From a virus: 21,178 nucleotides of DNA. Each line of letters opens with the position of its first letter. Position 1 is the stretch's first letter. The stretch covers positions 1 through 21,178 of the IMG/VR virus record IMGVR_UViG_3300023179_000590, one strand, 5' to 3'. The notes beneath the pieces are model-generated. The model was given only the letters and a program-made list of their open reading frames with translations. It ran no database searches and had not been told where the DNA came from. The translations under genes were made by a program, and so were the position numbers. This document shows, in pieces, positions 3,767 to 16,279 of this stretch.

Positions 3767-4242
3767 ACTGAGTACCTCCGTGCTCGGGTCTTTACACTAC
3801 TATCTGATGTGCGGCGAGTTAACTCTCGAGAAACTAATGCTGAATCCCGCTCTAAGTTTTGCAGCAATACTTCCACCAGTTTGCGGTAAGCATGCTTTTC
3901 ATCTAGTTCTTGCTTAGCTTCTACGACCTTTGGGTCTAAAAGGATATTAGCTTTAGCAATTGTTACGCGATCACCACTACCGCCCTTCCAGTTATTTACC
4001 ATAGCTGTGGCTTCTAGCACTGATACGTAACGATCTGCCTCACGTTCATCAATTGCTGCGACAGCAACCTGTGGGGCTACATAATCAGTCCAACTAGTCA
4101 AAGTAACAAAAAGTTCCATAAGGTCTTCGTCATGAAGCTCTGTGATATCCACAGGTAACTCGGGTATTTCATAGTTAGGTTTGTTAGGGATTTGAAACCC
4201 TTTTTTATTTAATGCATTTAATGCATGCGCACTATTACTCAT
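3763..4242 (-). CDS. Small helical protein, possible UvsY-type recombination mediator
   Basis: The 159-aa protein has no catalytic motif. A conserved-looking stretch ITELHDEDLMELFVTLTSW (33-51) is followed by a long helical region with many charged residues and a C-terminal helix YRKLVEVLLQNLERD (119-133) ending in a basic tail with SRELTRR. T4 UvsY, which loads the UvsX recombinase, is also a small helical protein with a similar central ATA-rich helix and C-terminal helix; the resemblance is in layout only, so this is a hypothesis from context (RecA, gp32-like SSB, nuclease nearby). I chose ATG 4242 over 4272 because GAGGA lies 8 nt before it and the longer form would run deep into the preceding small gene. 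Confidence 0.7.
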   Translation of the reverse strand: MSNSAHALNALNKKGFQIPNKPNYEIPELPVDITELHDEDLMELFVTLTSWTDYVAPQVAVAAIDEREADRYVSVLEATAMVNNWKGGSGDRVTIAKANILLDPKVVEAKQELDEKHAYRKLVEVLLQNLERDSALVSRELTRRTSDSSVKTRARRYSV

Positions 4243-4408
4243 TATTTCCATCCTCGTATAAATCATCATCAATTAATTGAATAGTCTTGCATGGGTATGG
4301 AATTTGGCAAACTGCACAAGTAATTCCTACATGCTCACTGCGTTTTTCTGCATGGTGTAGTTCACGAATGTGTTTTACAGCAGCACGATACGGATGTTTC
4401 TTAATCAT
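4235..4408 (-). CDS. 57-aa Cys-motif protein (CxxC...YPCxTI)
   Basis: This short gene encodes 57 aa. GGAGG stands 6 nt before ATG 4408, and the gene overlaps the upstream nuclease gene and the downstream gene by 8 nt each, so it fits the operon perfectly. The N-terminal half is basic and His-rich (RELHHAEKRSEH). It is followed by TCAVCQIPYPCKTI, with Cys31, Cys34 and Cys40, then an acidic tail. The same signature, TC-x2-C...YPC-x-TI, recurs in the 73-aa gene at 14516-14737. Three cysteines with a His-rich segment suggest a small metal-binding fold; the function is unknown. Confidence 0.75.
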   Translation of the reverse strand: MIKKHPYRAAVKHIRELHHAEKRSEHVGITCAVCQIPYPCKTIQLIDDDLYEDGNNE

Positions 4409-5294
4409 TTGTTTCCTCCCTGAAGGTCTCGCAACGCTTGCAACCGTTGACTGGATCTATATTACATGCAGGTGGGCGCTGGTTGTCAACTGCCCATGCT
4501 ACATCGGCTGCATTTTCAAATATATCTGCTATGTACTCTGGGTCGTACATAACCTCAAACTCTTTGTAGTCTTGGTTGGCCTTTAGTTCATAAATATAAA
4601 CAATAGATTCTGGGGCTGACTCAGCAAGGCCCTCTTCTACCATCAAATGACAAAGATGTAAGTAAACCTGTCCCTGAAGTATATGGCTGCGAAAAGGCTG
4701 CTTTATTGCCCGCCAAGCTGTATCTAAGTCGTTACCTGCTGCAGAGAGCATACTTGGGGCTTCAAAGCGGATAGTGCCTGTGCCTATTGATTTAATTTCA
4801 ATAAGGAAGTCGGCATCAAGTCCCTTTACCCAACCATCTGCATGACCACGGATCATATGCTTTGCAGAGGATAAAGGAACCTCTTTGTAAATAAGCCCGC
4901 CCTCATTACAAAACTGGCAACCCTCTGGTGAAGTGGCGTAAAAGGATTCATTGCAGTACACGCATTCCCAAAGCCCATACATATTTCCCATTTGGGTGAT
5001 CCAGGACTGCCACTTATGATGAATTGCATGCCCTTCATCAAAGATGGACTGAGTGCGGAGAGTAGGCTTATCTTGGGTATGTACATAGTTACCGTTTAAT
5101 GCATGATAGGCATGTAAAGCACACCATTCAGACTTAATCATGTCACTAGGATGCAAATAACTTTGATCACGAAACTCTCGAGGCTTAGCCAACATGTAGC
5201 GTTCTAGTGGACCGGTCAAACGCGATTTACGTTTATTAGCGTCCAGGAATGCCTTTAGGCTTTTGCTTGTTATCTTTTGTGGTTTTGAAGTCAT
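4401..5294 (-). CDS. Cas4/RecB-like PD-(D/E)XK exonuclease with Fe-S type cysteines
   Basis: The 297-aa protein has the Cas4-family order: HPSDMIKSEWC with Cys58, a GHADGWV motif (D153), the catalytic FLIEIKS strand (E166, K168), QGQVYLHL (about 207-214), and a C-terminal CNIDPVNGCKRC (Cys277, Cys285, Cys288). One N-terminal plus three C-terminal cysteines is the 4Fe-4S pattern of Cas4 and AddB. An extra pair of knuckles, CVYC (111-114) and CQFC (126-129), looks like an inserted zinc ribbon. The likely role is processive exonuclease in phage recombination or end processing. No cas1, cas2 or CRISPR array is present. It overlaps whiB-like 1 by 59 nt; the ribosome site at ATG 5294 is weak (GGAT), and Met34 is an alternative start. 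Confidence 0.85.
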   Translation of the reverse strand: MTSKPQKITSKSLKAFLDANKRKSRLTGPLERYMLAKPREFRDQSYLHPSDMIKSEWCALHAYHALNGNYVHTQDKPTLRTQSIFDEGHAIHHKWQSWITQMGNMYGLWECVYCNESFYATSPEGCQFCNEGGLIYKEVPLSSAKHMIRGHADGWVKGLDADFLIEIKSIGTGTIRFEAPSMLSAAGNDLDTAWRAIKQPFRSHILQGQVYLHLCHLMVEEGLAESAPESIVYIYELKANQDYKEFEVMYDPEYIADIFENAADVAWAVDNQRPPACNIDPVNGCKRCETFREETND

Positions 5295-5604
5295 TTGTTG
5301 TATCCAGCCATTCTTCCAAAGTCATATTTGCTTTAGTATATTTACGTACCATAGCATTTCGTTCTCTATGTGACAAACCGCCCCATATTCCATGCAGTTC
5401 ATCCGCGTTTATTGCTTCCACTAGGCACTCTCGCCTTACTGGGCAAGGAGGCCTACCGTCTGCTCCTTTACAGATTGCCTTTGCTTTATCTGCAATGGAA
5501 GCATATTGGTCTTTATCCCGTGGTGGATAAAAGATTTCGGTGTCTACTCCGAAGCATTTGGCGTCGTATCGCCAAGTCCATTCGGGGTCGTCGTCGTATC
5601 GCAT
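5236..5604 (-). CDS. WhiB-family transcriptional regulator 1 (unusual Cys spacing)
   Basis: The 122-aa product has the WhiB features: Cys17 in AKCFG, then Cys45, Cys54 and Cys60 in a CPVRREC context, the GIWGG turn at 72-76 and a basic segment SHRERNAMVRK after it. WhiB proteins hold a 4Fe-4S cluster and bind the sigma factor to change transcription; phage copies can repress host whiB genes or affect superinfection. The canonical spacing is C-x2-C-x5-C; here it is C-x8-C-x5-C because KGADGRPP is inserted. The C-terminal 30 residues are Lys/Thr-rich. It overlaps the preceding nuclease gene by 61 nt and the following one by 59 nt, much longer than other overlaps here. Confidence 0.88.
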   Translation of the reverse strand: MRYDDDPEWTWRYDAKCFGVDTEIFYPPRDKDQYASIADKAKAICKGADGRPPCPVRRECLVEAINADELHGIWGGLSHRERNAMVRKYTKANMTLEEWLDTTNDFKTTKDNKQKPKGIPGR

Positions 5605-11802: not shown

Positions 11803-11952
11803 TTAACTTTCTGTAAGTTCTTTCAATGCCTCAATTACTATATCAGTAACTGTGACACCTAACTCAGCTGCCTTTTCTTTGGCAGCATTCCAGAGATCAT
11901 CTGGAATCCTAATAGTGCGTGTTGGTGTTTGGTTTGACACTACATCTCCCAT
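11803..11952 (-). CDS. 49-aa ribbon-helix-helix (CopG/Arc-type) protein
   Basis: This short gene fills the gap between the SNF2 helicase and the 149-aa gene. GGAGGAG stands 6 nt before ATG 11952, a very strong ribosome site. The product has the ribbon-helix-helix pattern: a short strand TRTIRIPDDL (11-20), helix A WNAAKEKAAELG (21-32), the turn V-T-V-T, and helix B DIVIEALKEL (37-46). Such proteins dimerise, and the paired strands enter the DNA major groove, usually as repressors. No toxin gene is next to it, so an antitoxin role is unlikely. It probably regulates phage or host promoters; the target site is unknown. Confidence 0.8.
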   Translation of the reverse strand: MGDVVSNQTPTRTIRIPDDLWNAAKEKAAELGVTVTDIVIEALKELTES

Positions 11953-11982
11953 ATCGAACTCCTCCAACATCCTAGTATACTT

Positions 11983-14519: not shown

Positions 14520-14737
14520 TCCTGCTCACCGTCTAACGCTTTAATTGTTGGGCAAGGGTATTGCGGATAGTTGTTTTCGTCAATGGCACACTCTGAACAG
14601 GTAATGTCGTCGGCAGGCCCATTGATAGGCGTATGGATTCCCCGCACACGCTCTTTGATTTCTTCCTGTGCAGAATCCCATAGCGTACGCTGCCAATTAT
14701 CTAAGCAGCTTTCCCGAGTAAATTTAAACTTCGGCAT
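14516..14737 (-). CDS. 73-aa Cys-motif protein (CxxC...YPCxTI)
   Basis: The protein has a basic and aromatic N-terminal half (MPKFKFTRESCLDNWQRTLW) and a C-terminal motif TCSECAIDENNYPQYPCPTI, with Cys47, Cys50 and Cys62. The same motif appears, with a shorter spacer, in the 57-aa gene at 4235-4408, so the two are probably distant paralogues. Three cysteines suggest metal binding together with another ligand, but no fold is evident. AAGGA lies 5 nt before ATG 14737. It overlaps WhiB-like 2 by 14 nt and the primase by 4 nt. The function is unknown. Confidence 0.72.
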   Translation of the reverse strand: MPKFKFTRESCLDNWQRTLWDSAQEEIKERVRGIHTPINGPADDITCSECAIDENNYPQYPCPTIKALDGEQE

Positions 14738-14981
14738 TTTGTTCCTTTTTTAATTTTGCCCTCAATGTTTCACGTTGCCGTTGCGTAGTTGCTCCCCAGA
14801 TACCTTGTAGGTTTGGTTTGCGAACAGCATAGCGAAGACACTCTACTAAAACTGGGCAGCCGTTGCAAATTTCTTTTGCTGCAGCTATACCTGCACGATC
14901 AGATGGGTGTGGAAAAAACATATCCGGATTTTCTACATACATACAGGCCTGTTGACCTTCAAAATTTGGACCAAAATCCAT
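14724..14981 (-). CDS. WhiB-family transcriptional regulator 2
   Basis: The 85-aa product is a compact WhiB with canonical cysteines: Cys13, Cys39, Cys42 and Cys48 in ICNGCPVLVEC, the FFPHPSD segment at 22-28, the GIWGA turn at 60-64 and a basic C-terminus RQRETLRAKLKK. It should carry a 4Fe-4S cluster and act through the host sigma factor on transcription. AGGAGG stands 5 nt before ATG 14981 and shares two bases with the TAG stop of the upstream micropeptide. It overlaps the 73-aa gene by 14 nt. Unlike WhiB-like 1 its cysteine spacing is normal, so the two copies are not recent duplicates. Confidence 0.92.
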   Translation of the reverse strand: MDFGPNFEGQQACMYVENPDMFFPHPSDRAGIAAAKEICNGCPVLVECLRYAVRKPNLQGIWGATTQRQRETLRAKLKKEQNAEV

Positions 14982-14990
14982 GACTTCCTC

Positions 14991-15059
14991 CTAGTCAGTA
15001 TATTTATTTATAAGCCAAAGTATAACTATTAGTGCTGACAATAATGCTATTGATTTCAT
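14991..15059 (-). CDS. 22-aa hydrophobic micropeptide, coupled to dnaB-like and whiB-like 2
   Basis: In the gap before WhiB-like 2, an ATG at 15059 overlaps the TGA of the helicase gene (ATGA, 4 nt), the same coupling used by many real genes here. The frame runs 22 codons and ends with TAG inside the AGGAGG site of WhiB-like 2. The peptide has one hydrophobic segment, SIALLSALIVILWLI (3-17), between a Lys near the N-terminus and a Lys-Tyr-Thr-Asp tail, suited to a single membrane span. It may be a small membrane protein, or a leader whose translation controls WhiB-like 2. With only 23 codons, coincidence is possible. Confidence 0.5.
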   Translation of the reverse strand: MKSIALLSALIVILWLINKYTD

Positions 15060-16279
15060 GGCGCACCATATTCTTGAAACTTACCGTTTTCCCAATCCCA
15101 AAGTAGTTCTACTTCTACCTTGCCGCAGTTACGACTAGCTTCAATACGAAACAGACGAGAAGAATCATCAAACTCATCTTGCCGTTCAAGAGCTAATATC
15201 ACATCCGCATCTTGAAAGAATGAAGATGAATATCCAATTGACTGGGCGGATACTCGACCTTTTTTCATCTTCCACTCAAGTACCTGAGTAGTGATAACAA
15301 CCGGCTTACGTACTTTCTGTGCAAGCCGTTTTAATGATCGGGTGATATTTGTTAATGCAAGGGCGCTGTTTTGTTCCCCGCTGATCTCATCAGTCATAAG
15401 GTAAACACCGTCTACAAAAACAATATCTGGTTGAAGCTTATCGATCTTTGCTGACAATCCTGAAATAGTACGAGCAGAGACGCTATCAGTTAAGTAAAAG
15501 TTATGCATGGTCTCCATACGAGATAGCATTTTTTGATACCTAACTTCTTCATCAACTTTTAGATCGCCACGAGTTAACCGCGCATAAGAAATGTTTGAGC
15601 GCATTGCATCGTGACGTGCTTTTTGTTCTTGATTACTCATCTCAAAAGACTGAAACATTGGAACAAATCCGTCTTCATGTAAATTGACCGCAGTCTGTAG
15701 TGCAATCACTGACTTACCTGTTTTAGGTGGAGCAATAATTACTACAAGCTGCCCGGGCTGCAAGCCTGCCGTTGCTTGATCAATCAAAGAGAACCCTGTG
15801 GCCATGCCAATCAAACCATTAGGACGAGTTTTTATGTCTAGGTATTCTTGGTATCGACTTGCAGGGTTAGACGTAAGATCTACATCGGTAGACTGGCTAA
15901 TGCCGTCATCAAATAAACCTGCAACACCTTTTCCCATCAACTCTATCGCAATAGTATGATCGCCCGAAGCTATTGCCTCTGCAGCATCCTGAACTATCTC
16001 TATAGTTTTTTGGCGCTTACGGTACTCAACTAACTGATCAAGTAAGTACTCTACAGAATCTTCAACTTGCAGCAATCGATAATTTGGAAAGTTATCTTTT
16101 ACAGTAGTAGCTGTGGGAACTTCGCCATACTTTGAATAGTGCGTACGAATAAACTTCCACACAGATTTGTTTTCATCTACGTAGAACCAATTATCTTCTA
16201 AGCCATACTCCATTATCTTTGAGATATCTCGAGTACGGACTGCACGACTGATTAATCGTAATTCATTATCAGCAGCCAT
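15056..16279 (-). CDS. DnaB-type replicative helicase
   Basis: The 407-aa protein has a divergent helical N-terminal domain (1-120), then a linker and the RecA-fold ATPase: Walker A APPKTGKS (183-190), SFEMSNQEQ with the catalytic Glu213, Walker B DIVFVDG with D290, the glutamine sensor TTQVLEW (Q332), QSIGYSSSFFQDADVILALE (346-365) and RIEASRNCG (378-386). This order fits DnaB/SF4 helicases, which unwind DNA 5' to 3' as hexamers at the fork. It starts at ATG 16279 with GGGAGGG 4 nt before it, sharing a base with the upstream stop. A loader and an initiator are encoded upstream and a primase downstream. Confidence 0.9.
   Translation of the reverse strand: MAADNELRLISRAVRTRDISKIMEYGLEDNWFYVDENKSVWKFIRTHYSKYGEVPTATTVKDNFPNYRLLQVEDSVEYLLDQLVEYRKRQKTIEIVQDAAEAIASGDHTIAIELMGKGVAGLFDDGISQSTDVDLTSNPASRYQEYLDIKTRPNGLIGMATGFSLIDQATAGLQPGQLVVIIAPPKTGKSVIALQTAVNLHEDGFVPMFQSFEMSNQEQKARHDAMRSNISYARLTRGDLKVDEEVRYQKMLSRMETMHNFYLTDSVSARTISGLSAKIDKLQPDIVFVDGVYLMTDEISGEQNSALALTNITRSLKRLAQKVRKPVVITTQVLEWKMKKGRVSAQSIGYSSSFFQDADVILALERQDEFDDSSRLFRIEASRNCGKVEVELLWDWENGKFQEYGAP

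Follow-up and report, generated by a model that had tools for sequence, protein, structure and literature searches.

A candidate membrane micropeptide gene of 22 codons between the helicase and WhiB-like genes of a narrow phage lineage

A replicative helicase gene and a WhiB-like gene in an uncultured phage are separated by 74 nt, and a very short hydrophobic reading frame fills that interval. The question is whether this frame is a gene in its own right, an aid to translation of its neighbor, or an accident. The window analyzed is the whole 21,178-base virus record, a compact phage region mostly on the minus strand that includes two WhiB-like genes alongside replication genes. A preliminary description of the same sequence had proposed either a real small membrane protein or a leader that controls translation. 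Genes as short as 22 codons are usually missed by gene callers. The features at the junction are as follows.

15056..16279, minus strand: DnaB-like replicative helicase, upstream of the micropeptide ORF (PF03796, E = 7.2e-31; phrog_19, E = 1.1e-59)
15056..15059, minus strand: ATGA, the micropeptide start overlapping the helicase stop, spacing -4; the helicase CDS terminates in CCATGA
14991..15059, minus strand: hydrophobic micropeptide ORF by translation, 22 aa, MKSIALLSALIVILWLINKYTD and a stop, with counterparts in loci L004/L005/L046 and L006/L007/L008
14987..14993, minus strand: TAGGAGG, in which the micropeptide stop runs into the Shine-Dalgarno sequence of WhiB
14724..14981, minus strand: WhiB-like protein, downstream of the micropeptide ORF (PF02467, E = 3.9e-17; phrog_14459, E = 2.2e-18)

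The reading frame and its surroundings

Translation of the minus strand returns the 22-residue hydrophobic frame as first described, and both of its claimed contacts with the flanking genes are present. The ATG at 15059 shares ATGA with the end of the helicase gene; it is the first ATG, GTG or TTG of the frame in the window, and it has no clear Shine-Dalgarno sequence upstream. At the other end, the stop falls in the ribosome site of the WhiB-like gene, within TGACTAGGAGGAAGTCATGG, where the AG of TAG is common to AGGAGG. It is separated from the WhiB-like ATG at 14981 by 9 nt, as it is in L004. Overlaps of -4 are the commonest arrangement in closely spaced genes and permit coupled translation. 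They are ordinary in the window, where 5 other adjacent pairs in our own gene list share this arrangement; that list was set by hand, with one start shifted from 4272 to 4242.

The best 15-residue Kyte-Doolittle mean of the frame ranks 1 of 39 among the window ATG ORFs of 18 to 30 aa on both strands. When the inner 63 nt are base-shuffled, a fraction of 0.00009 of 100,000 trials yields an open frame that matches or exceeds the micropeptide in hydrophobicity. The gap holds another frame, at 15004-15069, which encodes 21 aa that are not hydrophobic, and its counterpart ATG is missing in L004. The micropeptide matches no family in Pfam or PHROGs at E 0.01, and tblastn against 50,697 phage records is likewise negative at E 10, a 22-aa query having little power in either search. 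The excerpts at hand of the literature on actinophage WhiB, phage small proteins, translational coupling and small phage membrane proteins contain no mention of the ORF.

The surroundings can be used to ask how readily gaps in this phage hold reading frames. Each of the 3 other window gaps over 100 nt has an ORF of 45 to 57 codons, below the 60-aa cut-off.

4235-4408, minus strand: small gap-filling ORF, 57 aa
11196-11333, minus strand: small gap-filling ORF, 45 aa, with a CxxC...H...H pattern
11803-11970, minus strand: small gap-filling ORF, 55 aa

We take the CxxC...H...H of the 45-aa ORF to be a motif, and the 55-aa ORF presumably resembles a ribbon-helix-helix protein, likewise by its motif. 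Closer in size to the helicase-WhiB gap are three gaps of 55, 66 and 69 nt, none of which has an ORF of at least 10 codons. Hence spacers near 74 nt can be empty in this phage, and chance alone does not supply such gaps with ORFs. Two distinct WhiB-like genes, at 5236-5604 and 14724-14981, both on the minus strand, lie within this one 21-kb phage fragment. WhiB is exclusive to Actinobacteriota and is used as an actinophage marker, according to the excerpt at hand of PMC10202952, and the phage host is therefore probably an actinobacterium.

Helicase-WhiB junctions among relatives

The main point of interest is where else a gap exists at this junction, and what fills it. Helicase searches supplied 46 loci and the best 80 of 176, and scans with a helicase C-terminus pattern supplied 17 and at least 119 stretches. 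The pooled 246 loci gave 120 junctions among the matches listed, and removal of three partial copies of other junctions (L099, L191 and L213) left 117 that are distinct. The WhiB start was placed in 114 of these 117, the exclusions being L018 (ATG not found), L214 (a stop within the WhiB frame) and L220 (contig end). Placement is doubtful for L133, at -134, and for L040, at +10 though there is an ATG at +1; neither is near the 40-nt limit from above. The junctions of L214 (IMGVR_UViG_3300032280_000136) and L105/L194 (IMGVR_UViG_3300032305_000778) are near-identical apart from the stop in L214, which may indicate that WhiB is lost in some phages, or an assembly error.

Among the matches listed, a gap of more than 40 nt is found in 4 of the 114 placed junctions, ranging from 74 nt in the window and the L004 type to 79 nt in L007 and L008. 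All 4 share one design, with an ATGA start, 22 to 24 residues, a hydrophobic core, and a stop within TAGGAG(G). The remaining 110 have WhiB either overlapping the helicase or beginning no more than 32 nt after it; the spacing is mostly -35 to -11 nt, with WhiB overlapping the helicase end, and the rest fall at about -4 to +32 nt. The long gap and the ORF occur together, 4 of 4 among the 114 placed junctions from the matches listed. The preliminary description had proposed looking for the frame and its hydrophobic character in related phages, and both hold in every one of these distinct gap junctions, which is indirect support for a real, predicted small membrane protein. In phages that have no ORF, the helicase stop lies near or past the WhiB start, and in one of them, L011, the helicase stop itself forms TAGGAGG.

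The carriers, among the matches listed, are the window and six IMG/VR contigs (L004, L005, L046, L006, L007 and L008), and their peptides are of three divergent types that keep hydrophobicity and little of the sequence. Type 1 is the window peptide, MKSIALLSALIVILWLINKYTD. Type 2, MKSIILSAILLSLIWLLHKYTD, belongs to L004, L005 and L046, which have one junction sequence. Type 3, MTNIVTGILIVVFIIAAI[A/S]SFMDH, belongs to L006 and L007, with one junction sequence, and L008, whose peptide differs at one residue; its homology to the other types is not recognizable from sequence, and the peptide ends vary between types. Each type has one predicted segment of membrane-spanning length by the Kyte-Doolittle scale only, with best 15-residue means of 2.82, 2.62 and 3.25, and 18-residue means of 2.04, 1.89 and 2.77-2.92, for types 1, 2 and 3 respectively. 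The corresponding fractions of shuffles with an equally hydrophobic open frame are 0.00009, 0.00043 and 0.00001. L007 and L046 have an in-frame GTG further upstream inside the helicase gene, which is absent from the window, so ATGA is the start common to the carriers.

Other searches do not enlarge this set. A WhiB-based scan of 55 loci adds no carrier among those with a placed WhiB start (the start was not placed for L261, L263 and L286, and was wrong for L264). Pattern scans with the micropeptide region match only the L004, L005 and L055 contigs, L055 being the L046 contig; the gap range of one of these scans went up to 54, too short for the L006-L008 type, whose equivalent is 60, so its silence on those contigs carries no weight. 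A pattern scan of the genome collection matched 127 stretches, with no relatives among them, and a nucleotide search of named phages with the junction found no match. By tblastn the helicase matches 969 phage records, all below 60% identity. In Streptomyces phage BRock, the single neighborhood examined, a primase follows the helicase, with no annotated WhiB in the stretch inspected. A control for hydrophobic gap ORFs, covering part of the loci (the window, L002-L012, L046, L047, L054-L068 and L147-L250), gave 45 candidates including repeats, of which 2 distinct ones passed, both being the micropeptide gene. The filter also discarded the L006-L008 type, and it is therefore a weak control.

Sequence turnover and recombination at the junction

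Between the window and L004, 18 of 69 nt are changed and the frame is unbroken; the differences fall 10/4/4 by codon position. By codon, 10 changes are replacements and 1 is silent; nine of the replacements exchange A, I, L, V or S for one another, and one is N to H. With replacements in such excess, selection on the precise peptide sequence is not apparent, and the counts, both by position and by type of change, are too few to prove selection in either direction. In a neutral simulation, run after the data were seen, that allowed substitutions only and held start and stop constant, 2.0% of runs retained a frame both open and as hydrophobic, and 31% retained an open frame of any hydrophobicity. 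This lends modest support to selection on the hydrophobicity of the peptide, and not on its exact sequence.

The helicase tree has 27 rows, five of them carriers. Carriers require 3 changes on this tree, and each carrier group adjoins a non-carrier: L002 (100/99), L003 (81/96) and L011 (100/98). One row, that of L044 (IMGVR_UViG_3300013014_000554), ends at its first stop; the helicase reading frame of L044 breaks across the match, with 10 stops, which suggests a frameshift, in the phage or in the assembly. Among the matches listed, the helicase closest to that of the window is that of L002, at 88%. L002 pairs with the window on the helicase tree and with L004 on the WhiB tree (96/95), where the L025 and L027 rows begin one codon ahead of the ATG. 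Because the two trees disagree on L002, the junction appears to recombine, which suggests that the interval between helicase and WhiB is a likely recombination point.

L002 is also the phage in which the ORF appears to have been lost. It keeps the tail ATAAATACACTGACTAGGAGG, the hydrophobic stretch is missing, and its helicase-WhiB distance is 27 nt versus 74 nt, so that a 47-nt deletion is most likely. This loss, together with the ORF-free sister phages, indicates that the micropeptide gene is dispensable and that WhiB needs no micropeptide leader. The TGACTAGGAGGAAGTCATGG segment is identical in L002 although the ORF is gone there, and for that reason the last codons of the peptide may be retained for the WhiB site.

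Competing readings and the favored one

Translational coupling declines with distance. An intergenic distance of about 20 nt is reported to nearly abolish termination-reinitiation in six gene pairs from E. coli and H. volcanii (PMC10666635, from the excerpt at hand). The excerpt at hand of PMC12548453 describes coupling that persists less efficiently to about +40 nt, with one case at +62 nt, and short ORFs that can deliver ribosomes to the next gene. From what these two excerpts report, a bare 74-nt gap would weaken or break coupling between helicase and WhiB; with the ORF present, the distances are -4 and +9 instead of 74 nt, and each stop lies close to the next start. It is thus possible that the ORF only carries ribosomes over the spacer to WhiB and that its amino acids are irrelevant, and the 10 to 1 ratio of replacement to silent changes fits such a passive role. 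Against it, the strong hydrophobicity of all three types would go unexplained, as would the spacer itself, since 110 of the 114 placed junctions among the matches listed have none over 32 nt. WhiB also has a strong Shine-Dalgarno sequence of its own, and the weaker coupling out to about +40 nt and the case at +62 nt in the excerpt of PMC12548453 make the need for a bridge uncertain. On balance we regard a peptide-independent bridge as unlikely.

The frame could also be a chance ORF, untranslated or inconsequential, in a spacer left by recombination. The behavior of L002 on the two trees and the empty spacers of 55 to 69 nt elsewhere in the window are compatible with this, and AT-rich DNA easily yields hydrophobic frames. 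Weighing more heavily are the start, frame, hydrophobicity and stop position retained in 4 of 4 gap junctions, along with the rank of 1 in 39 and the shuffle fractions of 0.00001 to 0.00043, and we consider an accident of this kind quite improbable.

The remaining proposal is a regulatory leader that gates WhiB translation by arrest or attenuation. The part of this idea that stands is the geometry, with the overlap at the helicase end and the micropeptide stop in the WhiB ribosome site, to which a possible hairpin can be added.

14981..14997, minus strand: TGACTAGGAGGAAGTCA, predicted hairpin of 5 bp that places the Shine-Dalgarno sequence of WhiB in a 7-nt loop; energy no better than shuffles

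This hairpin, with the stem TGACT/AGTCA, has one and the same sequence in the window, L004, L005, L046 and L002, and could account for the conservation of the final codons even in L002, which lacks the ORF. What does not stand is the dependence of WhiB on the ORF. With none of 8 junction RNA folds better than shuffles (z -0.49 to 1.06), the hairpin missing in the L007 type, the peptide ends not alike across types, no room for the ORF ahead of WhiB in 110 of the 114 placed junctions among the matches listed, a TAGGAGG formed by the helicase stop in L011, and a WhiB gene with its ribosome site in the ORF-less L002, a leader is very improbable.

The reading we favor, and consider probable from the comparison of sequences, is that the ORF is a genuine, tiny accessory gene found in a narrow phage lineage, encoding a predicted single-span membrane micropeptide between the helicase and the WhiB-like gene. 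On reaching the end of the helicase, ribosomes would reinitiate at the shared ATGA and translate the 22 codons, then terminate within the ribosome site of WhiB, 9 nt upstream of its start, such that the insertion would leave the chain of coupled translation unbroken. Given the position of the helicase stop in the ORF-free phages, and the TAGGAGG of L011, the best reading of this arrangement is a small gene whose insertion left ribosome flow intact. Once translated, the micropeptide would presumably insert into the host membrane, where its role may be minor and dispensable, for instance modulating a host membrane protein during infection. A more elaborate version, which we think improbable, is a fast-changing membrane micropeptide co-delivered with the WhiB-like regulator, its hydrophobic length kept and its sequence turning over, as would be expected if it tracks a host membrane target (e.g., in superinfection exclusion or transporter dampening), the two forming a host-takeover cassette that comes and goes at the helicase-WhiB junction.

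Neither small membrane proteins nor coupled short ORFs are new as classes, and the micropeptide is ordinary in kind. Among small single-span membrane proteins of bacteria, E. coli DinQ and YohP (27 aa) are likewise described in excerpts as very short and essentially one hydrophobic segment; the likeness is one of description, and the micropeptide differs in being a phage gene in a replication operon. It resembles the phage small proteins (<100 aa) in being a very small phage gene, but has only 22 aa and lacks the Pfam, PHROGs (E 0.01) or tblastn (E 10) match. With the translationally coupled short ORFs in the excerpts of PMC10666635 and PMC12548453 it shares the -4 nt ATGA overlap and the short distance from stop to next start; it differs in that its hydrophobic product is kept, and in that the downstream WhiB, preceded by a strong Shine-Dalgarno sequence, occurs in most placed junctions with no ORF ahead of it.

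By itself the micropeptide raises no major question. The comparison of gaps and ORFs, 4 of 4 among 114 placed junctions, picks out a candidate mini-gene in an uncultured phage lineage and, if that gene is real, a membrane micropeptide can enter a tightly coupled operon with ribosome flow uninterrupted.
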